Both the position numbers and the translations under genes were made by a program. The notes below the pieces were generated by a model that saw only the letters and a program-made list of their open reading frames with translations, searched no databases and had not been told where the DNA came from. 35,994 bases of DNA from Flavobacteriales bacterium (GTDB taxonomy: Bacteria; Bacteroidota; Bacteroidia; DT-38), in the NCBI GenBank assembly GCA_013214205.1, contig JABSPQ010000133.1, forward strand, positions 1 through 35,994, written 5' to 3'. Position 1 is the stretch's first letter, and each line of letters begins with the position of its first letter. Below, piece after piece: positions 11,940 to 27,013 of the stretch.

Positions 11940-12179
11940 ATGGAGAACTGCTTAAAAGCAAATCCTGAACAGGGTCATCCACTTAATGAAACGAAGATTA
12001 TTTTCAGCAATCAGAAGTTTGTGTTTAATCATGATTTTCAACCTACCCCATTCATACAAACAGAACTTAGCCTGTATGAGTTAGAAGCAGATGAAAACTT
12101 ACCAAGGTTTGGCTATTTCATTCTAGACGTAGACCTTGATGGAAATCATCTTGATGCTTGGTTGGTGCATACAGATTAA
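11940..12179 (+). CDS. Small hypothetical protein
   Basis: 79 residues, acidic, without signal peptide or membrane span. The second half (FQPTPFIQTELSLYELEADE then FGYFILDVDLDGNHLDAWLV) looks like a beta-rich domain ending in a hydrophobic strand. No family recognised. It stands between two unrelated small genes on the same strand, about 115 bases from each. The real start could also be further in, since no clear ribosome-binding site is visible. Confidence 0.5.
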   Translation: MENCLKANPEQGHPLNETKIIFSNQKFVFNHDFQPTPFIQTELSLYELEADENLPRFGYFILDVDLDGNHLDAWLVHTD

Positions 12180-12286
12180 ATCTATAGTTTTCATCCACAA
12201 ATCATGCTTAAAACAAATAAACCGATAAAAACTACAATTTAATCCACGGCTGTATTATTTTTAAGGCTAATAAAAACCAAATAATA

Positions 12287-12820
12287 ATGAAGACACTAAA
12301 ACTAATAGGACTATTTATTCTAGCAATTTCCATTACCGTTTCGGGCCAAACAAACAATGTTCCTGCAGGATGGGAATCGCTTATTAAAGATGATTTCTCG
12401 ATTAGCCATCCCGCCGAATGGGAGTTAGACGCTCCGGGACAGATGGGTACCACTTTTTTGATATTCACACCTCTATCCTCATCAGAAGACTTATTTAGAG
12501 ATAACTTAAACTTACTTGTTCAAGATTTATCAGATTATGATTTAGATTTGAAAGCATATACAGAATTGTCTTTAAATCAGATTAAGACCATAATGGCAGA
12601 CGTTAAAATAATTGAAAGCAACACGCTTAAAGCAAACGATAGGGATTACCATAAATTAATTTACACAGCTAAGCAAGGAGATTATAATCTTAAATTTGAG
12701 CAACGCTGGTGGGTAGTAGGTAAAACGGCATATGTTTTAACCTTTACTTGCGAAGAAGACCAATTCGATAATTTTAATGTTGCTGGAGCAAAGGTGCTTG
12801 ATAGTTTTCGTATAAACTAA
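12287..12820 (+). CDS. Secreted PsbP-like/DUF1795-type protein
   Basis: 177 residues with a cleavable signal peptide (LKLIGLFILAISITVSGQ, cut near residue 21). The mature part begins VPAGWESLIKDDFSISHPAE and has the pattern of PsbP-related domains: an aromatic-Pro stretch after a Tyr/Phe-Ser strand, a central helix (AYTELSLNQIKTIMADVKII), and a C-terminal strand-helix with AYVLTFTCEEDQFDNF and AGAKVLDSFRI. Such proteins are exported and mostly of unknown role. The family call is by pattern only. It is followed after 80 bases by another small secreted protein. Confidence 0.65.
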   Translation: MKTLKLIGLFILAISITVSGQTNNVPAGWESLIKDDFSISHPAEWELDAPGQMGTTFLIFTPLSSSEDLFRDNLNLLVQDLSDYDLDLKAYTELSLNQIKTIMADVKIIESNTLKANDRDYHKLIYTAKQGDYNLKFEQRWWVVGKTAYVLTFTCEEDQFDNFNVAGAKVLDSFRIN

Positions 12821-17283: not shown

Positions 17284-18156
17284 ATGAGATTTCTTTTAAG
17301 TACAGTTGTTTTACTCATTTGTCTGAACGCTGTTCAAACGCTTGGGCAAGATGTGGTTTCAATCTACTTTAAGTCTGGCCAATCTAAAATGGCCGACAAC
17401 CAATTGCCTACCCTCAATTCCATCTCCACCAATTACGACCTATCCGAATTAGATTCCATTCATTATATAGGCATGGCAGATTCTACAGGAAGCCTTAAAG
17501 CAAACCTGAAACTTTCGGAAAAAAGAGCGAGAAACGTTGCCAAATATTGCGAGAAATTACTCCCAAAAGATCTCCCTATTCAAATAATGGCCTTGGGCGA
17601 AAACAGCAAGCAAAACAAAGCTGGGAGCCGAAGAGTTGAAGTGACAATGTTTTTTAAAACCGCAATAACTGAGGAACCGAATGAGACTACATCTTCAGCA
17701 TCAGCACCAATATCAACATCTGATCAAACACCTGCGTCAGTACCATTGTGTTACAACATCGATTACAAGCTCCTCCACCGAAGTCATTTAAGAACGATAA
17801 CCAAAGGGAAAAATGAATATGCGCTTATAATGTGCCCCAAGGATGAACTTGAAGAACGCAAAGAACATTTTTATGGCACTACATTAAAGAACGGCACCTT
17901 TTCGGTAAAGCCTGTAAAATGGAGACTCAAATCGACAGGAAATTTTTGGTGGGACAAAAAGAGATATGTGGCAAAAATTCCGACAAAAAATTATAAGACC
18001 TATAAAATATTCAAAACAGATTCGTTGCCATGCAACAGTTGTAGTCAAGACTTTGCCAATAAAAACACCATCGACAACATTGCAGACTGCTTTCAAGTTG
18101 ATCGGTTTCTGATGAAGAACATCCAACTCAAATCCAAGTTTTTCAATTCATCCTAA
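17284..18156 (+). CDS. OmpA-domain secreted protein, truncated by frameshift
   Basis: 290 residues in the open part. Signal peptide (FLLSTVVLLICLNAVQTLGQ), then an OmpA/MotB-like peptidoglycan-binding domain at about 25-125: VVSIYFKSGQSKMADNQLP, a Gly-Met-Ala-Asp-Ser-Thr turn, ANLKLSEKRARNVAKYCEKL and GSRRVEVTMFF. A Ser/Thr/Pro linker follows, then a basic domain with a CPKD and CNSC cysteine set. The frame stops at 18154-18156, while similar-looking coding sequence continues in the next frame, so this is probably the front of a broken gene. A one-base loss in the T run at about 18139-18143 would restore the frame. It may still yield a periplasmic OmpA-domain protein. Confidence 0.7.
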   Translation: MRFLLSTVVLLICLNAVQTLGQDVVSIYFKSGQSKMADNQLPTLNSISTNYDLSELDSIHYIGMADSTGSLKANLKLSEKRARNVAKYCEKLLPKDLPIQIMALGENSKQNKAGSRRVEVTMFFKTAITEEPNETTSSASAPISTSDQTPASVPLCYNIDYKLLHRSHLRTITKGKNEYALIMCPKDELEERKEHFYGTTLKNGTFSVKPVKWRLKSTGNFWWDKKRYVAKIPTKNYKTYKIFKTDSLPCNSCSQDFANKNTIDNIADCFQVDRFLMKNIQLKSKFFNSS

Positions 18157-18889
18157 TATAAAAGTAAGAGCGCCCAGAGAGTATGTTAATATAGATGAGA
18201 AATACTTTGGCGGCTGTAATTTTAAAGATGAACTGATATGGAAAACAAAAAAGATGAGGTGGAATCGAAATTTCTATTTCACAAAATTCTCTGCTGCCTA
18301 TGGAATTGCCAACATAGTAAGAGTTATGGAATGTTGCGAAAGCAATCCTGAACCATCGGCATGCGAATACCCATTTCTTAACATGCTAAGTTGTGGAAGG
18401 CCAGATGAAACGTATTTATTGAACGTGGAAGTGGGCAGCATCTACCAACAAGTAGAAGTGTTTCCATATGCGGCATTAGGCATAAGTAAATAAAATGAAA
18501 TTGTTCGCGGAAGTTTTCATGTTGGAAGCGATCTGTTTTTAAGCCTTGTAAGCTTTAGCAGGCTGCAAGTTCATGTTCTATCTGTTCCATTAACTTCATT
18601 AATTCCAGTTTCGAGATGGGAAAATCCAACCAAAGATAAAATACTAAACACCTACGCCCGAATTTATGTAGGAACCGAGTTCAAATCGAAACATGGTAAA
18701 AAAGGAGAAAATTATTTAGAGCAAAACATTCACGTAGGCCTTGCTGCCGTTAATACAGATGCTAGGTTTATTCCAAGAATCTTCCTTCAATATGGCTATG
18801 GATACGACTTCACCAAAAACGTTTCAACAAAACCATATCCCATCGTTCAATTTGGAATGAATTTCAGGCTATTCAGTCTGCATTTATAA
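18145..18889 (+). pseudogene. 3' part of the OmpA-domain gene (barrel-like remnant)
   Basis: In frame +2 the sequence reads on from the frameshift as IHPNIKVRAPREYVNIDEKY, RWNRNFYFTKFSAAYGIANI, a Cys-containing segment (MECCESNPEPSACEYPFLNM) and SIYQQVEVFPYAALGISK, then a TAA at 18491-18493. After the stop the same frame continues without a start codon to 18889: EIVRGSFHVGSDLFLSLVSF, NTYARIYVGTEFKSKHGKKG, FLQYGYGYDFTKNV and a barrel-like end in NFRLFSLHL. Alternating hydrophobic strands and the terminal aromatic pattern suggest an outer-membrane beta-barrel. Two independent lesions argue for decay. Confidence 0.7.
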
Positions 18890-19487
18890 GAGAAACTTTA
18901 AAAAATCAGGATTTTTCAAACTTCATTTTTTCATCACTCTAGGCAGCTTTTAATACCACAACTTGCCTTCGAATCAAGATTGAATTCAAAATATTTTTTT
19001 GAGAAAGACAAGTTGTTCAAAATTTAAAAATCCAAATTCTTTCTCAAGTCCTCCCCCTAGCCAATAATAAAACAACCACCCTAACTCACTTAAAGACACA
19101 CATCAATGTATTTTTTACATGTAAGGTTATACACATTTTTTACTATGTTTATCTACTAACTTTTATAGCAACAAACGAGCATTAAATTTCACAATTAATT
19201 CAAACGAGTACCATTATTTCCGATGAATAATATTTTGTCATGAGTAGTACTAATCCGCACATATTGACAAATCACTATATAAACACAATAAAATCACACT
19301 CCTTCAACATATAATTAGAATCCTAAAAAGATTATTCAGCGATGACAAAATTGACATTGAAAGGCATGACATAACTGAAGTAAAGAAACAAACGATTCCT
19401 GAAATAAAAACACAAGAAGCTGCACAAAGCAAGAAAGAAATTAAAGAAAACAGCAACGAAAGACATTTAACAAATAAACACATCACT
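18890..19487. other. 598-base intergenic region ahead of the oxidase operon
   Basis: No gene with a standard start is supported. It has a short hairpin after the OmpA remnant (AAAAATC at 18901-18907 with GATTTTT at 18910-18916), an 8-base inverted repeat (ACAACTTG 18958-18965 with CAAGTTGT 19009-19016) and a 10-base one (TTGAGAAAGA 18999-19008 with TCTTTCTCAA 19038-19047). From 19254 to 19487 a frame with no stop runs straight into the tyrosinase-like gene but has no ATG, GTG or TTG. No good TAnnTTTG box was found, so the operon promoter may be a non-standard or regulated one. Confidence 0.6.
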
Positions 19488-21677
19488 ATGAGCAAGAAAG
19501 AAAATAGAGGCCACCGAACTCCTTATGCTAAATTCAAGAGAATTATGGACGAAGCGGCTGGTAATTCTACAGCCGACTATCAGGGACACGGTAGATTCTG
19601 GAATACGCTTTCCATAAAAGAACTTCAGGAAGTGTCTATCTATGGAATTAAAATGATTGCTCCCGTAGACGGCACCTCAGACGCTCCACAAAACACTCCT
19701 TCAGAAATTCCTGATTGCTGTCATCCACGTGACACACCTAAGGTGGAAACACCTGATTGTTGTCCTCACGATCCTGATGCGAAAGATGGAGATGATCACC
19801 ATCATCATCACGATGAAACAGCTGAGACTTATACACCTGGCCGAGGTGCTGCTTCCGGCTTAGTTAAAGGCTTAAAAGGACAATTCCCGTATGATGATTC
19901 TCAATTCCCACGGCTTCCTTTTGAAGGAGAAGCGGTTCCTTTAAGAGGCATTCAATTTATTGAAAGATGGATTGATGCTGGCTTACCCGAGCACCACATG
20001 CCCAGACATCATGATGACGATGATGGCGATGGCAACGACAATGCTTACGATCCACTTACAGATGGAGAAGAAGCGCATCCTTCTGTTCCGCACAGCAACA
20101 CGTTTAAATATGAGGCAGGTAGTGTTCTGCAACGAAAAAATGCTCAATATTTAACCGATCACGAAAAAGAGGAGTTAAGATATGCGATCCAGGAAATAAA
20201 GAATTTAGATAAATTCCCGTTAGACAAAAGAAGCTTTAATGCATATGGAAAGATCCACGGAGATTCTTGTCAGCATGGTTGGGAACAATTTCTTCCTTGG
20301 CACAGAAGTTTTCTTTACGAATTCGAACAACTACTTCAAGATTACGCTCCTGGTGTAGCATTGCCATATTGGGATTGGACATTACCTATGTACAACAAAG
20401 GAATTCCGCATCCAGGAGGCATGAGCGGAATAATCCCTAACCTATATCGCTGTTGGATAACTTCCGAAAACATAACAAACTTAAGCCAACAGGGATATGA
20501 TTCTACCATAACCAACGCATTAAGTACACTTATAGGAACAGAGTACAGCTCGGGCACAGAGTTAATATGGAAAGCTCAAGATTTAGTTTCTTCAACCTGG
20601 CCTCCCGGACTTACCGACGCAATATGGGCACAATGTTCGTTGAACAATTCGCTATTTCACAAATACCGATTTCCGGGCATGTATTACGAAAAAGCAGACC
20701 CTACTAGTTCTAATTCTAAATACAAATATGGAGCAGATGGTAGGCCTATTAGAATTGGTGGAGAAAACCCTACGCACATTTTTCATCACCATTATCCTAG
20801 AGCCGAAGAAATCGACCAGATTCTTCAAATTAACAACTGGCCAGATTTTGGTGGCGGACACAATGCCAACTCATCGTTTGGCATGTTAAGTCAGAACCCG
20901 CACAACACAGGCCACATTTGGTTGGGTGGAGAAAATCCATTTGCAGACCCTTCGCAACCTAACTCAACAAATAATATAATATATGGCGATATGTTTAACG
21001 ATTTAGTGGCATTCTTCGATCCTATGGCTTGGGGACATCACTCGAACGTAGACAGACTTTGGGCGAAATGGCAAACGCTTCATCCTAATGTTAATCCTGA
21101 TAACCTTACAGATGTTATGATTCCTTGGCATTATACAGTTCAGCAACTGTTGAGCACCTCTAAATTGGGTTACGAATATGTTGAAGATTCGAAAGTTTGG
21201 TCTACCAATAATAAAACACCGATTACTAAATTCAAATCGGAAGACACTGGCATCCATCAAGACGTACTTAGCAACCATAGCAAAGCAGAAGTGAGATTGC
21301 ATAATCTACAACGTTCTGGAGATTCGCACTTCATTAGAGTGTTCTTAAACAGTCCGGAAGCGAATGCAGATACACCAACAATCGACAACGACAACTACGT
21401 GGGTTACATCTCTCGATTTGGTCATGGAGATTGTGTTGGAGGTCCTGGTCATTGTGAAGTTCCATCGCCGAACAAACGGAATTTTGATATGCGTGGCAGA
21501 CATCACAACACACCAACCAATCATCCTTTGGATGCAACAGAAAACGTTAAAAAGCTTATTGCGAAAGGAGCAACCGACATACATGTAAACGTTGTTGCGC
21601 TTAATGCAAACGGACAATTGGCAACTGGTAATAGCCGCCTACTAATGGATGGAGTTTCAATCAACTTCATTAATTAA
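19488..21677 (+). CDS. Tyrosinase-family type-3 copper protein with metal-ligand-rich N-terminal extension
   Basis: 729 residues. The core (about 205-530) is a dicopper oxidase domain. CuA: H257, H263 and H272 in KIHGDSCQHGWEQFLPWHRS; C261 lies two residues before H263, as in enzymes with a Cys-His thioether. The helix LPYWDWT follows. CuB: H472 and H476 in PHNTGHIWLGG, then HH517-518 in FFDPMAWGHHSNVDRLWAKW. Such proteins oxidise phenols to catechols and o-quinones, or are oxygen carriers. The first 205 residues are unusual: two Cys-Cys-His-type motifs (77-79 and 91-94), a five-His cluster (104-108), an Asp/His-rich stretch (169-185) and a segment ending FIERWIDAGLPE. A C-terminal domain of about 190 residues follows. 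There is no signal peptide or T9SS tail. First gene of a four-gene operon. Confidence 0.9.
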   Translation: MSKKENRGHRTPYAKFKRIMDEAAGNSTADYQGHGRFWNTLSIKELQEVSIYGIKMIAPVDGTSDAPQNTPSEIPDCCHPRDTPKVETPDCCPHDPDAKDGDDHHHHHDETAETYTPGRGAASGLVKGLKGQFPYDDSQFPRLPFEGEAVPLRGIQFIERWIDAGLPEHHMPRHHDDDDGDGNDNAYDPLTDGEEAHPSVPHSNTFKYEAGSVLQRKNAQYLTDHEKEELRYAIQEIKNLDKFPLDKRSFNAYGKIHGDSCQHGWEQFLPWHRSFLYEFEQLLQDYAPGVALPYWDWTLPMYNKGIPHPGGMSGIIPNLYRCWITSENITNLSQQGYDSTITNALSTLIGTEYSSGTELIWKAQDLVSSTWPPGLTDAIWAQCSLNNSLFHKYRFPGMYYEKADPTSSNSKYKYGADGRPIRIGGENPTHIFHHHYPRAEEIDQILQINNWPDFGGGHNANSSFGMLSQNPHNTGHIWLGGENPFADPSQPNSTNNIIYGDMFNDLVAFFDPMAWGHHSNVDRLWAKWQTLHPNVNPDNLTDVMIPWHYTVQQLLSTSKLGYEYVEDSKVWSTNNKTPITKFKSEDTGIHQDVLSNHSKAEVRLHNLQRSGDSHFIRVFLNSPEANADTPTIDNDNYVGYISRFGHGDCVGGPGHCEVPSPNKRNFDMRGRHHNTPTNHPLDATENVKKLIAKGATDIHVNVVALNANGQLATGNSRLLMDGVSINFIN

Positions 21678-21711
21678 TCCACATCATATTTTAAACAGAA
21701 AAAATAACGAC

Positions 21712-23826
21712 ATGAGTAGCAAATACAAAATATATCCAGCAATAGGCATTGCCCGTGTAGGAAACAGTGAAGACAAAATTTATTTGGCTCCAGAAAAACC
21801 AGGTGCTCTACCTTTCGAATTGGATGAACACGGTAACTTAAGATTAGACCCTACAACAAATGAACCTATCCCAGTTTCAGAGTTTAAGGACCCAAGTGGC
21901 AAGATTAAAAGACAAGCTGCACGCTTTAAAATTTACGTGTACGACGACGTTAATCCTGAAGGAAGAGAATTAAAAATTGGAGACGAAATACAAGGAATTG
22001 GAAGCAAGGGGAAACTGAAAGACATTCAATGGACTACATATCTTGCGAACAAAAAATCGAGCTGGTACCAGTTTAAGCAACTTGAAGGAGAACATGGCTA
22101 CAGCCCAACGCACCCTTTAAGAAATGCCGACATTACGGATCCCAAAGCGCGACAAAAATTAATTATTGATCCAGGTCCACAAACAGTTTTAGGAAAAAGA
22201 GGCAAAGCACAATTTTCTAGAGATGGAAACCCTTCATACGCTACAACGTTTCCTCCAAAGCTAAAGCCCTACTCTATTGATACACTAGGCGAAGTGATGA
22301 CCAACGACGATCATAATCTAATTGTACTTGGCGGTCCAGGTAAATCAGGATCTTACAAAACAACCGAAACAGAATTCGGTGAGCCTCGAATTTCCAATTA
22401 TCCTAATAACCCAGGATGGTTCGACGATATTTCGGATGGCCCTGTTACAGCATTTCTTGTTTATTACGACGAACTAGATGATATGTACAGATACCTACAA
22501 ATAGAAGATCCTGCGTGGGTAGTTGTTGGGTATCCTCGGTATGCTCCAGAAATAGAAGACATGGTTTCTATGGACGAAGTAATTAATAATGTTGGCATCA
22601 GAGACCTTGCGGGAGATTTGTACATGTATGGCACCGGCAATTTCGACAACCCTACTCCAGTTACAGAAGCCAATTTAACCCAATGGCAAAACTCAAGTAA
22701 AAAATACAATCCAGATTACTATCCATATTTCTATCGCGACATTTGGCCAATACTGTCACGTCCTTTTAAAATGCAATGGGTAACTTCTGTGTTAGCACAA
22801 TCTAGTCAACCACATAACACTGGATATCAAGGCAACTTTCAAGAAGACTTGTTATCGCAACCACCATCAGGCAGACAAGATCCATACGCTAGCATGCGTG
22901 CAAAAATCTATATGGCCTTAAGACAGCCAGGTCAAGAAAACATGTTTTTTCCTACAAGTGATCCAGCAGAATTTCAAAACTACAAACCTTTGATGCCTCT
23001 GCTGCTTGGTGACAATCCGCTTACCAACACTGTTCCATCTAAGTTTCTGCGATTAACCGAAACCATGCTATTCATTATTAAACAATGGAAAGAAGGTAAG
23101 TTTATTAATGAAAAACTGGCGGGAATAGACACGGGCAAATTAGACTTAGCAGAAAATCAGGGAATGGCAATAACCAAAGGTGTGTTAAGCAATGGCCTAG
23201 GTGGCGCATTTAACCCTGGTGCCGAAGTAGCATGGAATATCAGAGATAAAAACACTTACAGCAAGCCATATCAAATTAATGCCAACCGTTCGTTTTTACC
23301 AAACATGATAACGAGCAGTGTTGGCACAACACCGGGAGTAAATTTATACGAAAGAGCTAGTTTATCTTTGGGCGACAACATTAAAACAGGAATGGAGCCC
23401 GGCGATTTAACCAAATACTCGGCTCTACCATGGCAAGCAGATTTTAATGAATGTAGCAATGAGAACGTAGATGTAACCTACGAGGCTTGGAATGTTTTAT
23501 ATGACAGACCAGACAATGGTGCTGATCCGAGTTCAAATCAAAAAAACTTCTTAGGCTTATGGTGGCCTTCGCACAGACCCATGCAAGTAGCTATTCCTGT
23601 TTCTGGAGAATTTGTTGAATGGGCATCAGGCATCCCACAAAACACCTCGCTTAACTATGAGGGAGATTACAAAATGGTTACCAATTGGAACGATTTAGGG
23701 TTTGTAAAATCAATAGTTAAAGACGGTCAAATTCAGGGATACTATCAACAGGAACGTAACCATGATAAATTAGGACCGCAACTAACGCATACTTACAAAG
23801 CACCGACAAAAAAGAAGAGTAAATAA
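21712..23826 (+). CDS. LodA/GoxA-like CTQ-dependent oxidase
   Basis: 704 residues from ATG 21712, chosen because it gives the family N-terminus (KYKIYPAIGIARVGNS). LodA and GoxA are quinoprotein amino-acid oxidases (L-lysine epsilon-oxidase, glycine oxidase) whose cysteine tryptophylquinone forms from a Cys and a Trp of the same chain, releasing ammonia and hydrogen peroxide. The Cys candidate is C581 in PWQADFNEC; D577 four residues earlier matches the Asp512/Cys516 spacing known in LodA. The Trp candidate is W617 or W618 in LGLWWPSHRP. NPGWFDDISDGPVTAFLVYY and DPAWVVVGYPRYAPEI also fit the family. No signal peptide. It starts 34 bases after the tyrosinase-like gene. Substrate unknown. Confidence 0.92.
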   Translation: MSSKYKIYPAIGIARVGNSEDKIYLAPEKPGALPFELDEHGNLRLDPTTNEPIPVSEFKDPSGKIKRQAARFKIYVYDDVNPEGRELKIGDEIQGIGSKGKLKDIQWTTYLANKKSSWYQFKQLEGEHGYSPTHPLRNADITDPKARQKLIIDPGPQTVLGKRGKAQFSRDGNPSYATTFPPKLKPYSIDTLGEVMTNDDHNLIVLGGPGKSGSYKTTETEFGEPRISNYPNNPGWFDDISDGPVTAFLVYYDELDDMYRYLQIEDPAWVVVGYPRYAPEIEDMVSMDEVINNVGIRDLAGDLYMYGTGNFDNPTPVTEANLTQWQNSSKKYNPDYYPYFYRDIWPILSRPFKMQWVTSVLAQSSQPHNTGYQGNFQEDLLSQPPSGRQDPYASMRAKIYMALRQPGQENMFFPTSDPAEFQNYKPLMPLLLGDNPLTNTVPSKFLRLTETMLFIIKQWKEGKFINEKLAGIDTGKLDLAENQGMAITKGVLSNGLGGAFNPGAEVAWNIRDKNTYSKPYQINANRSFLPNMITSSVGTTPGVNLYERASLSLGDNIKTGMEPGDLTKYSALPWQADFNECSNENVDVTYEAWNVLYDRPDNGADPSSNQKNFLGLWWPSHRPMQVAIPVSGEFVEWASGIPQNTSLNYEGDYKMVTNWNDLGFVKSIVKDGQIQGYYQQERNHDKLGPQLTHTYKAPTKKKSK

Positions 23827-23856
23827 TCTTAATTAATTCTAACCAAAAACAAAACA

Positions 23857-25467
23857 ATGAATTTACCTAATCTGCAAATTAAAGCAAGTTTAAAAATACT
23901 TGCGCTGTCATCCATAACATTAATGATGGCCTGTGGCCAACCAGAAAAACCAAAGGAGGATACTCCAGCAACAAACGACGAAGTTGAAACAACTGCTGGA
24001 TATATTACGATTTCCCCCAAAGTACCTACTAACCCAGCAAGCCAGCTTCCTGAAGAGTTAGCAAAATTTGCTTGGGAAGAGTTTTTTGCACTCAGCTGGC
24101 AGTCTTCTTGGAAACAAAATAGTGCACAAAAAGGTTCCGTCCACTTAAGAGGAACGGCCAACACCAAATGGAATCCCACTACAGATTATGGAACCAATTA
24201 CGAAATTGTTTGGGAAACTTATGCCCATGTTACTGAGCTAAGACCAGGACAAGGCGCAATGAAACCTTTCGATGATCCTCCACATTATTCGTATGTAAGC
24301 TATGACATTGCTGCTCATCCGGCTGTTGTTGGCGGAAATTTAAATCCAGCTTTATTTAACAACCTTGATGAAGACAGCGAGATTGGTTCGTGCAATGTGT
24401 ACCCGCCAAAAACGGTAATAGATGGGACACCTACAGAGCTGGTATTGTATCAAGCAAAAACCAATAGAGACGAATACGATTATATTAAAAAGAATTACGA
24501 TACAAAATCGAAACTCTCGACAGCAACAACGCTTACCGCAAAAAACATTCTTCAATACAACGCATATTACGATGGCGGAACCAGTAACTGTGGTTGCCCA
24601 GACGGTATTGTTTGTTTGCCTTGTGGGGGAGATCTTGACGGCAACGGTGTTGAACTTGAAGGTGCAATAGAGGTTAAAACAGCATGGAGAAAGGTAAGAC
24701 CAGGAGAAAACACAAGTAGTTTCTTTACTCGAAACAATCTTTACTATGAATTAAATAATGGAGACCTTGTGTACAACAACGCACCGTTTGTACTGATTGG
24801 AATCCATATCATTCATAAAACTAAGGACAATCCCGAGTTTATATTTGCATCATGGGAGCATGTAGGAGTTGAAGCTTTACCAGAAGATGAAGCTTACCAA
24901 CTTCAACTTTTAGATACAGGGAAAACACTTTCAAACAAAGTTGTAGGAACTCCACATACCTATTCAAGGTTTGCTCCTGTACCAGAGTATTTAGATCAAG
25001 TGACGGCACAGGTACACGAGCAACTTGCCACCCAAAATCTTGTCGGTTTCGATATTTGGAAAAACTATCGACTAATAGGAGTGCAAGGAAAACCTGTTGA
25101 TTATAAGGATAAAAATAAAGATCCAAATTACTTTATGGCCAACTATGTTATCGAATCCGATTTAGCTGGTTTCGGAACAGGTAAACCTGGTCTTGCAGAT
25201 TTTCATGGCTCGGGATTCTCAACAGTTCCGAAGTATGTTAACGAGCAAGTTAACATCTTAGACATAAGCGAGAAAAAATTCTTGGACGCCGGTGGTTGTA
25301 TTGGATGTCATGGAGTTGCTCAAACCTTTTTAGGTACAGACTTTAGCTTTTTACTCGATGATGTTGGCAAACCAGTTCCACAGCCTTCAACCATCAACAC
25401 TATAATACCGCTAAATAAAACGAATGCTAAACAATATCTAACAGACTTAAAATCAGCAAACAATTAA
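23857..25467 (+). CDS. Large lipoprotein with a single haem c motif (cytochrome-like)
   Basis: 536 residues. N-terminal lipoprotein signal with lipobox LMMAC (lipidated C26) and an acidic linker, so it sits in a membrane facing the periplasm or outside. A C481-I-G-C484-H485 haem-binding motif lies near the C-terminus (DAGGCIGCHGVAQT), preceded by AGFGTGKPGLADFHGSGF. In the middle is a Cys-rich insert with C245, C247, C253 and C256 beside an Asp/Gly-rich, possibly calcium-binding turn (DLDGNG). The N-terminal half (ELAKFAWEEFFALSWQSSWK) is a domain I do not recognise by name. Located between the CTQ oxidase and the flavoprotein at gaps of 30 and 31 bases, it is a likely electron acceptor or assembly partner (inference). 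Confidence 0.85.
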   Translation: MNLPNLQIKASLKILALSSITLMMACGQPEKPKEDTPATNDEVETTAGYITISPKVPTNPASQLPEELAKFAWEEFFALSWQSSWKQNSAQKGSVHLRGTANTKWNPTTDYGTNYEIVWETYAHVTELRPGQGAMKPFDDPPHYSYVSYDIAAHPAVVGGNLNPALFNNLDEDSEIGSCNVYPPKTVIDGTPTELVLYQAKTNRDEYDYIKKNYDTKSKLSTATTLTAKNILQYNAYYDGGTSNCGCPDGIVCLPCGGDLDGNGVELEGAIEVKTAWRKVRPGENTSSFFTRNNLYYELNNGDLVYNNAPFVLIGIHIIHKTKDNPEFIFASWEHVGVEALPEDEAYQLQLLDTGKTLSNKVVGTPHTYSRFAPVPEYLDQVTAQVHEQLATQNLVGFDIWKNYRLIGVQGKPVDYKDKNKDPNYFMANYVIESDLAGFGTGKPGLADFHGSGFSTVPKYVNEQVNILDISEKKFLDAGGCIGCHGVAQTFLGTDFSFLLDDVGKPVPQPSTINTIIPLNKTNAKQYLTDLKSANN

Positions 25468-25498
25468 GTTTTAAATTGTTAAGCAAGTAATTTGTTAA

Positions 25499-26617
25499 AT
25501 GATAGAAAAGTATGACGTCGTTATTCTTGGTGGGGGTCCAGCCGGTTCGGCTGCTGCCCTCACCTTGAATAATATTCAACCCGAAATTTCCATCGCCATA
25601 ATTGAAGCCAGCCATTACGAAAAATGGCGTGTTGGCGAAACCCTCGCTCCTGATGCTGGTAAGGCATTAAGAAGTTTAGGCATTTGGGATTCGTTTTTAA
25701 AAACGGACCAACTTCCAGCACTTGGCACCTGTGCCGCGTGGGAAAATTCTATTGTTAGAGACAACGAATTCATCTTTCATACCGAAGGAAAAGGTTGGCA
25801 CTTAAACCGTGTTCAGTTTGATAAGTGGATGGTAAATGAAGCCGTTAAAAAAGGCACTACTTTGCTAACCGACACCAGATATGTAAACCATGAAAAGCCC
25901 GTTGATAAAAAGAGAATAATCACTTTACAGAAAAATGGGAAACGGTTTCAAGTCGAAACAAGTTTTGTAATTGATGCCACTGGCAGGTCGTCTTCGTTTA
26001 TGAAAAATGAAAACGGGCAAAAGAAAGTTTACGATCGACTTTCTGGAAGCATCGTTTTTTTTAAAGCAAACAAAGCACCATCAAACATTAAAGCATATAC
26101 GCTGGTAGAAACAACCGAAACTGGTTGGTGGTATTCGGCATTGCTACCAAACGATCAGATTGTTGTGGCTCATATGACAGATGCAGATATTTTGAAAAAG
26201 GAAAACCTATCTGATTCAACCAGTTTTTGCAACTTGCTAAAACAATCGCTTCACACCAAACATCGAGTAGAAGAGCTAAATCCCATAGAGCCAATTAAAA
26301 TACTTAGCGCCGCATCCATGATTAGTAATTCAATTGTAGGAGATGGTTGGATAGCAATTGGAGACGCCGCTTCTACTTTCGACCCCCTCTCCTCTCAAGG
26401 AATTTTTAAAGGAATTAGGTCGGGTATGTTCGCAGCTTATGCGTTGTCGGATTCTTTAAATGGAGATCAATCTGGTTTCGACAAATACGAAAGATATATT
26501 CAAGACGAATTCAAAGAATACATAGCCACTCAAAACAAATTCTACCAAATGGTGCAACAGTGGCCTCAGTCAGAATTTTGGAACAGAAGACAAAAAGAAC
26601 TTCAACCTGTTTCATAG
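25499..26617 (+). CDS. LodB-like FAD-dependent protein (CTQ maturation)
   Basis: 372-residue flavoprotein of the tryptophan-halogenase/geranylgeranyl-reductase superfamily. FAD-binding GGGPAGSAAA (11-20), WRVGETLAPDAGKALRSLGI (43-62), the DATGRSS motif (159-165) and the second FAD motif WIAIGDAASTFDPLSSQGIF (284-303) are seen. LodB, the partner of LodA in Marinomonas, is a flavoprotein needed to build the CTQ cofactor. The presence of a LodA-like gene two genes upstream in the same operon supports that role here. It lacks the halogenase WxWxIP motif as far as I can see. Cytoplasmic, no signal peptide. Last gene of the operon. Confidence 0.88.
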   Translation: MIEKYDVVILGGGPAGSAAALTLNNIQPEISIAIIEASHYEKWRVGETLAPDAGKALRSLGIWDSFLKTDQLPALGTCAAWENSIVRDNEFIFHTEGKGWHLNRVQFDKWMVNEAVKKGTTLLTDTRYVNHEKPVDKKRIITLQKNGKRFQVETSFVIDATGRSSSFMKNENGQKKVYDRLSGSIVFFKANKAPSNIKAYTLVETTETGWWYSALLPNDQIVVAHMTDADILKKENLSDSTSFCNLLKQSLHTKHRVEELNPIEPIKILSAASMISNSIVGDGWIAIGDAASTFDPLSSQGIFKGIRSGMFAAYALSDSLNGDQSGFDKYERYIQDEFKEYIATQNKFYQMVQQWPQSEFWNRRQKELQPVS

Positions 26618-26661: not shown

Positions 26662-27013
26662 CCAAGATTCGTCATCCTCGAAAATGTTCCCGTACGTACG
26701 GGATTCTAAATTATTTGGGGATCTCTACGCTAGGAACGATAAGCCAAGAATCCGCTTTTCATTTTAGAGTTTCTCACTTTAAAATTCATAGCCTTGGCGA
26801 AGAAGTTTGCTTTTGTAAACATTAGAAAGTCTTAATGGCAAGCTGTAAATAGATTAAATACAACGTGGTGCTCATTAACGCCACCCAATCAATCCAAAGT
26901 ACAGCCTGCTCGGCATAGAGGCGGGTCCGCCTATGCATTCGGATAAACTGGCATTACGTAAGAGATCCCCGCGTATTTTGTAAGGACAAAATCACGAGGA
27001 TGACGAATCTTGG
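26662..27013. repeat. MITE-like element with 19-base terminal inverted repeats
   Basis: CCAAGATTCGTCATCCTCG (26662-26680) is perfectly repeated in inverse at 26995-27013. Further in, GGGGATCTCT (26717-26726) pairs with AGAGATCCCC (26961-26970). A 16-base perfect palindrome, TCCCGTACGTACGGGA (26688-26703), and an imperfect hairpin at about 26919-26937 (AGGCGG/CCGCCT) lie inside. It fills most of the 460-base gap between the lodB-like gene and the next gene. No coding frame or target duplication is evident. It may be a non-autonomous mobile element, a palindromic intergenic repeat or a bidirectional terminator. Confidence 0.75.

Follow-up and report, generated by a model that had tools for sequence, protein, structure and literature searches.

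A tyrosinase–LodA–LodB operon with a predicted haem c lipoprotein in a Flavobacteriales bacterium

Contig JABSPQ010000133.1 of a Flavobacteriales bacterium (assembly GCA_013214205.1), 35,994 nt long and analyzed here as a whole (the window), belongs to a 5.1 Mb draft genome in 464 contigs. At positions 19488–26617 it carries four genes, all on the plus strand, with intergenic gaps of 34, 30 and 31 nt; in 5′ to 3′ order they encode a tyrosinase-family copper protein, a LodA-like protein of the cysteine tryptophylquinone (CTQ) type, a CxxCH lipoprotein and a LodB-like flavoprotein. This operon is real, conserved and coherent. We consider, with a probability of about 0.5, that as a whole it is explained by a four-gene oxidative module with an exported haem protein as redox partner. 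The tyrosinase–LodA–LodB core has been known since 2010–2015; the haem-lipoprotein variant and the lipoprotein's family are apparently undescribed.

The initial annotation of this DNA had listed the same genes and gaps, and both the gene calls and a homologue-based start of lodA agree with it. The four protein identities also hold, on the basis of PF00264, LodA_N/LodA_C, the CxxCH motif with a lipobox, and the NCBIfam LodB model, respectively.

Conserved pairing of tyrosinase and LodA

A LodA alignment, the tyrosinase not being part of the query, was used to scan the genomes of 84,980 species and yielded 80 loci with flanks. In a maximum-likelihood tree of LodA (short search, no bootstrap, support by the Shimodaira–Hasegawa-like approximate likelihood ratio test, SH-aLRT) the window protein fell into a clade of 76 rows (SH-aLRT 99) together with Rhizobium and Mesorhizobium operons of the order multicopper oxidase (MCO)–tyrosinase–lodA–small gene–lodB. 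Of the clade loci, 75 (the window among them) extend at least 1 kb 5′ of lodA, and all 75 have a tyrosinase gene there, in the orientation of lodA; the spacing is mostly <70 bp, in a few loci up to 1.2 kb, and once a DJ-1/PfpI gene stands between the two. Outside the clade no tyrosinase was seen near LodA in any of 15 loci (flanks 1–10 kb). LodB is encoded beside lodA in the clade loci, and most of them carry the small gene. The tyrosinase–LodA pair spans Bacteroidota, Acidobacteriota, Pseudomonadota, Planctomycetota and Verrucomicrobiota. The functional linkage proposed in the initial annotation is thus borne out by conserved order, and the haem family joins LodA even where a tyrosinase is absent.

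The closest relative of the window is a Roseivirga metagenome-assembled genome (locus L019; 72% LodA identity). Within the order and family of the window's genome, the search covered a single related genome, from which LodA was absent.

Judged by operon anatomy, and not by the paper's own sequences, the clade appears to correspond to LodA group ID of the 2015 survey by Campillo-Brocal et al. (PMC4417212). The group ID operons of that survey combine a tyrosinase and an MCO with, usually, a gene for a 138–142-aa protein between lodA and lodB; one Bacteroidete is included, and Bradyrhizobium japonicum USDA6 is an example (Fig. 1B in PMC4417212). We give even odds to the four genes of the window being one expression unit of this tyrosinase-linked type. 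Its operon lacks the MCO and the small gene, both of which are typical of group ID, not universal. The small gene (138–150 aa) was not detected in the window or in the rest of its genome by a profile that finds it in three of three control relatives; two MCO genes are located elsewhere in the genome. Saccharophagus degradans, assigned to group ID, is also without a small gene between lodA and lodB (PMC4417212).

Several additional genes recur near the clade operons. In 17 loci (e.g. L020, 13854–14414; L050, 15555–15989) there is a membrane protein of 137–219 aa with a ‘FPKC..CWAAY’ motif, possibly a metal transporter; none was seen in the window. A DJ-1/PfpI-like gene is near or within the operon in 14 loci (e.g. 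L015, 13125–13712; L024, 9174–10004). Lacihabitans sp. LS3-19 has a second, distant lodA–lodB pair on the opposite strand beside its tyrosinase–lodA operon (L057, 15918–18915).

The third partner: MCO or haem protein

Full flanks were available for 58 loci, and these divided into 28 with an MCO only, 25 with a member of the haem family only, none with both and 5 with neither (one of the five, L076, has an MCO by separate locus annotation). For one randomly placed copy per genome we estimate that about 0.15 of the 58 loci, rather than 25, would contain the haem family. The alternation is strong as a pattern; as an evolutionary test it is suggestive. Whether the exported redox partner of the oxidative module is either an MCO or a haem protein is, we think, a question with about equal chances of yes and no.

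The set of four does recur, for example in Marinoscillum (L024), Saprospiraceae (L020) and Flavobacteria; however, position and strand of the lipoprotein gene vary, and other lineages have an MCO instead. The haem gene occupies the lodA–lodB gap in the window and follows lodB on its 3′ side in Flavobacteria; it is located 5′ of the operon on the same strand in Marinoscillum, and Saprospiraceae and Bradyrhizobium have it 5′ as well, but on the opposite strand.

The CxxCH lipoprotein and its family

The third gene (23857–25467, plus strand) encodes a 536-aa protein with a signal peptide and a lipobox MMAC (Cys26). A sole CxxCH motif near the C-terminus (CIGCH, residues 481–485; 25297–25311) is the predicted site of covalent haem c attachment, and it is retained in all 30 family members that we collected. 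His317 (24805–24807) of a G-x-H-[IV] motif, invariant in family alignments A4 and A6, is a candidate second haem ligand or catalytic residue. Besides a CxxCH motif in an exported protein, the genome provides a haem c assembly gene, coding for a CcsBA-like Cytochrom_C_asm protein in a frame of ∼1050 aa; the window organism can therefore probably make haem c, and covalent haem is predicted for the lipoprotein.

Pfam and NCBIfam searches with the lipoprotein gave nothing above chance. Two AlphaFold models (mean predicted local distance difference test scores of 60.6 and 70.7) had no Foldseek match at E ≤ 0.001 and no confident PDB match. Membership in the cytochrome P460/c′-beta group, prompted by a 0.054 Pfam match in one family member and by motif order as judged by eye, was rejected: with the haem motif cut off, the profile score dropped to the level of shuffled sequences.

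Members of the family occur in other settings as well. Xanthomonas sacchari (L138) and Pseudoalteromonas xiamenensis (L135) have one directly 5′ of lodA–lodB, in the absence of a tyrosinase. Azospirillum ramasamyi (L144) has a member followed by a small subunit of the FAD-dependent sorbitol dehydrogenase (FAD-SLDH) type and then by a GMC oxidoreductase (dehydrogenase). Known FAD dehydrogenase sets of SLDH/GMC type include a cytochrome c subunit; by analogy, the Azospirillum member would occupy the place of this subunit. Several proteobacterial members are soluble Sec-type proteins, not lipoproteins. As a background rate, a match to the family of any kind, many of them partial, was found in 16 of 296 Bacteroidota genomes.

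Two further types of neighbour were observed. Signal-less proteins of 600–700 aa without a Pfam family (L126, 9791–11611; L128, 6058–8163; L129, 4785–6914) each have a CxxCH lipoprotein-family gene ∼30 bp on their 3′ side; on a plasmid of Gloeothece verrucosa (L145, 4536–7406) a family member adjoins a ThcOx/SagB-type protein resembling cyanobactin oxidases.

Cofactor sites of the enzymes

The tyrosinase-family protein (19488–21677, plus strand; 729 aa, no signal peptide; PF00264, 1.8e-30) is 36–40% identical, over residues 118–729, to tyrosinases of Rhizobium and Mesorhizobium LodA operons. Hemocyanin and tyrosinase alignments place its dinuclear copper site at 20256–21041 (plus strand), with H257, H263 and H272 as CuA ligands and H472, H476 and H518 as CuB ligands. 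All six histidines, as well as C261 and N473, are invariant in 72 of 72 tyrosinase homologues; having the six, the protein belongs with the type-3 copper proteins, and phenol oxidation is its predicted activity. N473 adjoins H472. C261 stands two residues ahead of H263, a spacing that we take to match the thioether formed by Cys and His in fungal tyrosinase and in molluscan hemocyanin; C261 and H263 probably form such a thioether. The N-terminal ∼200 aa (19488–20100) contain a conserved ‘WI..G.P’ segment and a Cys-Cys pair, C77-C78, present in 69 of 72 homologues; no known domain matched this part. One could speculate that the Cys-Cys region is a built-in copper loading site. The idea of a degenerate cytochrome domain was rejected, as it had no Pfam support.

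The LodA-like protein (21712–23826, plus strand; 704 aa, no signal peptide) matches LodA_N (1.4e-57), LodA_C (2.8e-36) and the structures 2ymw/3weu (6e-54). The open reading frame caller opens lodA at 21649, within the tyrosinase gene; relatives begin at the corresponding Met ahead of ‘KY.I.PAIGIARVG’. We therefore set the start at the Met of 21712, which makes the tyrosinase–lodA gap 34 nt. By alignment to 2ymw/3weu the CTQ precursors are Cys581 (23452–23454, plus strand; LodA C516) and Trp618 (23563–23565, plus strand; LodA W581), conserved in 97 of 97 and 96 of 97 LodA-like sequences, respectively. The protein thus has both domains, both CTQ residues and a lodB-like gene nearby, as expected for the LodA-like CTQ family, and the CTQ and type-3 copper sites of the initial annotation stand. 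Its NCBIfam LodA score of 334 bits is under the equivalog cut-off of 600, so the protein is not classed as a lysine 6-oxidase. Residue 501 (23212–23214), in the motif GAFNPG, is Asn in the window and L019 only; elsewhere it is mostly Cys (73 of 97) or His (11 of 97). The Asn may bear on the substrate.

The last gene (25499–26617, plus strand) encodes a 372-aa LodB-like FAD protein with the nucleotide motif GGGPAGSAAA, a putative CTQ maturase (NCBIfam maturase_LodB, 2.3e-89). It also matches maturase_GoxB (7.4e-70) and QhpG (2.1e-50); the LodB and GoxB scores, 300 and 236 bits, are both under the equivalog cut-off of 400.

Cell location

Export was assessed by a simple check for hydrophobicity in residues 1–60. 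A hydrophobic N-terminus was found in 26 of 30 haem proteins and in at least half (57%) of the MCOs, where some starts have been miscalled or are Tat-like; by the same check there was none in 72 tyrosinases, 76 LodA proteins and 45 small proteins. Within the window operon the export signal is on the lipoprotein only, and the proposal of one envelope system is not supported in that form. As tyrosinase and LodA have no hydrophobic N-terminus, any export of the two would be non-classical. Marinomonas mediterranea secretes LodA but retains LodB in the cell (PMC2855505). Since that LodA is secreted without such a signal, a meeting of the haem protein with LodA and tyrosinase outside the cell or at its surface is plausible but unproven.

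Proposed mechanism and alternatives

We propose that the LodB-like FAD protein would turn Cys581 and Trp618 of the LodA-like protein into CTQ in the cytoplasm. Once mature, the LodA-like protein would release ammonia from a primary amine or an amino acid by oxidative deamination, leaving an aldehyde or a keto acid, and the tyrosinase-family protein would convert phenols into o-quinones. The envelope-anchored haem c lipoprotein may serve as an exported one-electron redox partner, taking electrons from reduced CTQ, or from the quinols or peroxide of the enzyme pair; many relatives have a laccase-type MCO in its place. The net effect would probably be reactive aldehydes, quinones and peroxide, formed on the cell surface or beyond it, with a role in antagonism, biofilm formation or cross-linking. 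As to the direction of electron flow, a role of the haem protein as an acceptor is suggested by its neighbours in Azospirillum, by its replacement by an MCO, itself electron-accepting, and by quinohaemoprotein amine dehydrogenase (QHNDH; PMC7876137), in which CTQ is combined with haem c.

Several observations weigh against this module. The Fisher value for the alternation in the 58 loci, 8e-12, is inflated because the rows are related and include near-identical species; tree-independent contrasts of MCO versus haem protein are five out of five in the expected sense, with p = 0.0625 only. One locus with a shorter flank (L032) holds both an MCO and a divergent haem-family member. In Roseivirga L019 there is neither partner nearby, and the haem family was not detected anywhere in that genome; a partner is thus dispensable. 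The lipoprotein family also neighbours unrelated proteins, and tyrosinase and LodA, if cytoplasmic, are beyond direct reach of an envelope haem.

Peroxide could have a more central role. LodA would make H2O2, and the haem lipoprotein would be a peroxidase or scavenger using it, for example in phenol oxidation alongside the tyrosinase; the MCO of relatives would be an alternative phenol oxidase. Characterised LodA enzymes do produce H2O2 (PMC2855505, PMC4699246), other LodA groups have catalase-fold N-terminal domains (PMC4417212), a DyP peroxidase is encoded near LodA in Mycetohabitans, and the alternation between haem protein and laccase-type MCO is in keeping with two different phenol oxidases. 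However, the haem protein has a single CxxCH and no similarity to known peroxidases, and its place beside an FAD dehydrogenase in Azospirillum speaks for electron acceptance; we regard a peroxidase role as possible, if on the whole unlikely.

Rather doubtful is a generalization of electron acceptance, in which the lipoprotein family would be a general exported haem c acceptor for unrelated oxidoreductases (CTQ, GMC-flavin and others), exchangeable in function with an MCO in the tyrosinase–LodA module, and the LodA of the window an envelope-wired dehydrogenase and not a plain peroxide-making oxidase.

It is improbable that the tyrosinase-family protein, the haem protein or both act not on small substrates but in making CTQ, by copper supply, Trp hydroxylation or a final oxidation of dihydroxy-Trp by haem, as in MauG and the QHNDH haems. 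For LodA, the initial hydroxylation of Trp is reported to depend on copper, and for QHNDH haem c is described as a possible final oxidant (PMC7876137); the tyrosinase adjoins lodA clade-wide, has no export signal and keeps the conserved Cys-Cys pair. On the other hand, LodA-like proteins outside the clade retain the CTQ residues although no tyrosinase accompanies them, CTQ is known to require LodB, and the tyrosinase active-site residues, Asn473 included, are all retained as in catalytic enzymes. Least probable is that the lipoprotein family serves to dock a partner enzyme, secreted by an unconventional route, at the cell surface, with a structural or secondary part for the haem: large proteins of several unrelated kinds that lack a signal (those of L126, L128 and L129, and LodA) do precede its members, but the invariant CxxCH and G-x-H-[IV] motifs argue for a working haem, and the soluble proteobacterial members do not fit.

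Relation to known systems

The initial annotation knew of no described system with this exact set. For the copper–quinone pairing this fails in view of the 2010 and 2015 reports of tyrosinase–LodA–LodB operons: a 2010 review described consecutive genes for an MCO, a tyrosinase and a LodA homologue in S. degradans 2-40 (PMC2855505), and the 2015 survey followed (PMC4417212). For the haem lipoprotein no description was found: the text of the 2015 survey does not mention a cytochrome (PMC4417212), and a search of the open-licence literature for the combined terms gave no other relevant paper.

Compared with group ID operons, the window operon has the same tyrosinase, LodA-like and LodB-like set, within the same clade as the Rhizobium/Mesorhizobium operons, but it lacks the MCO and the 138–142-aa gene, and its lodA–lodB gap is occupied by the gene for the CxxCH lipoprotein. 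It shares the CTQ Cys and Trp and a LodB-type flavoprotein with lodAB of M. mediterranea (L-lysine 6-oxidase, PDB 2ymw/3weu); that operon is distant, though, and has no tyrosinase or haem gene, and the Asn-for-Cys change in GAFNPG is limited to the window and L019. Like the qhp operon of QHNDH (PMC7876137), it brings together genes for a CTQ protein, a putative c-type haem protein and a LodB/QhpG-type flavoprotein. Yet the CTQ subunit of QHNDH is unrelated, and the di-haem subunit, radical SAM and protease genes have no counterpart here; as neither qhpA/B/C subunit genes nor a QhpD radical SAM gene is in the window operon, it is not a QHNDH system. FAD sorbitol/gluconate-type dehydrogenases with a cytochrome c subunit likewise have an exported haem protein gene next to the dehydrogenase gene; theirs, however, is a flavin GMC enzyme, not a CTQ enzyme.

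Genomic setting

The 1.33 kb 5′ of the operon (18157–19487) contain no open reading frame of ≥80 aa and resemble gene remnants behind an OmpA-like gene (17284–18156). Between lodB and the next gene there is a ∼350-bp element (26662–27013), perhaps a small mobile repeat; its terminal inverted repeats are 34 nt long and 79% complementary. In Roseivirga L019 the lodA–lodB gap, the site of the lipoprotein gene in the window, has a ∼270-bp element (12097–12370) with 32-nt flanking inverted repeats, 72% complementary. The operon has 40–42% G+C against 37.7% in the window; we rejected horizontal transfer on grounds of composition, the difference being too small for such an argument.

Implications

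That tyrosinase, laccase and CTQ oxidase occur together was noted long ago for M. mediterranea and S. degradans and has had no explanation. The observation now gains a broad footing, with a conserved pair across five phyla and an exchangeable exported partner. In addition, the analysis highlights an unnamed family of haem proteins that recurs beside several redox enzymes.

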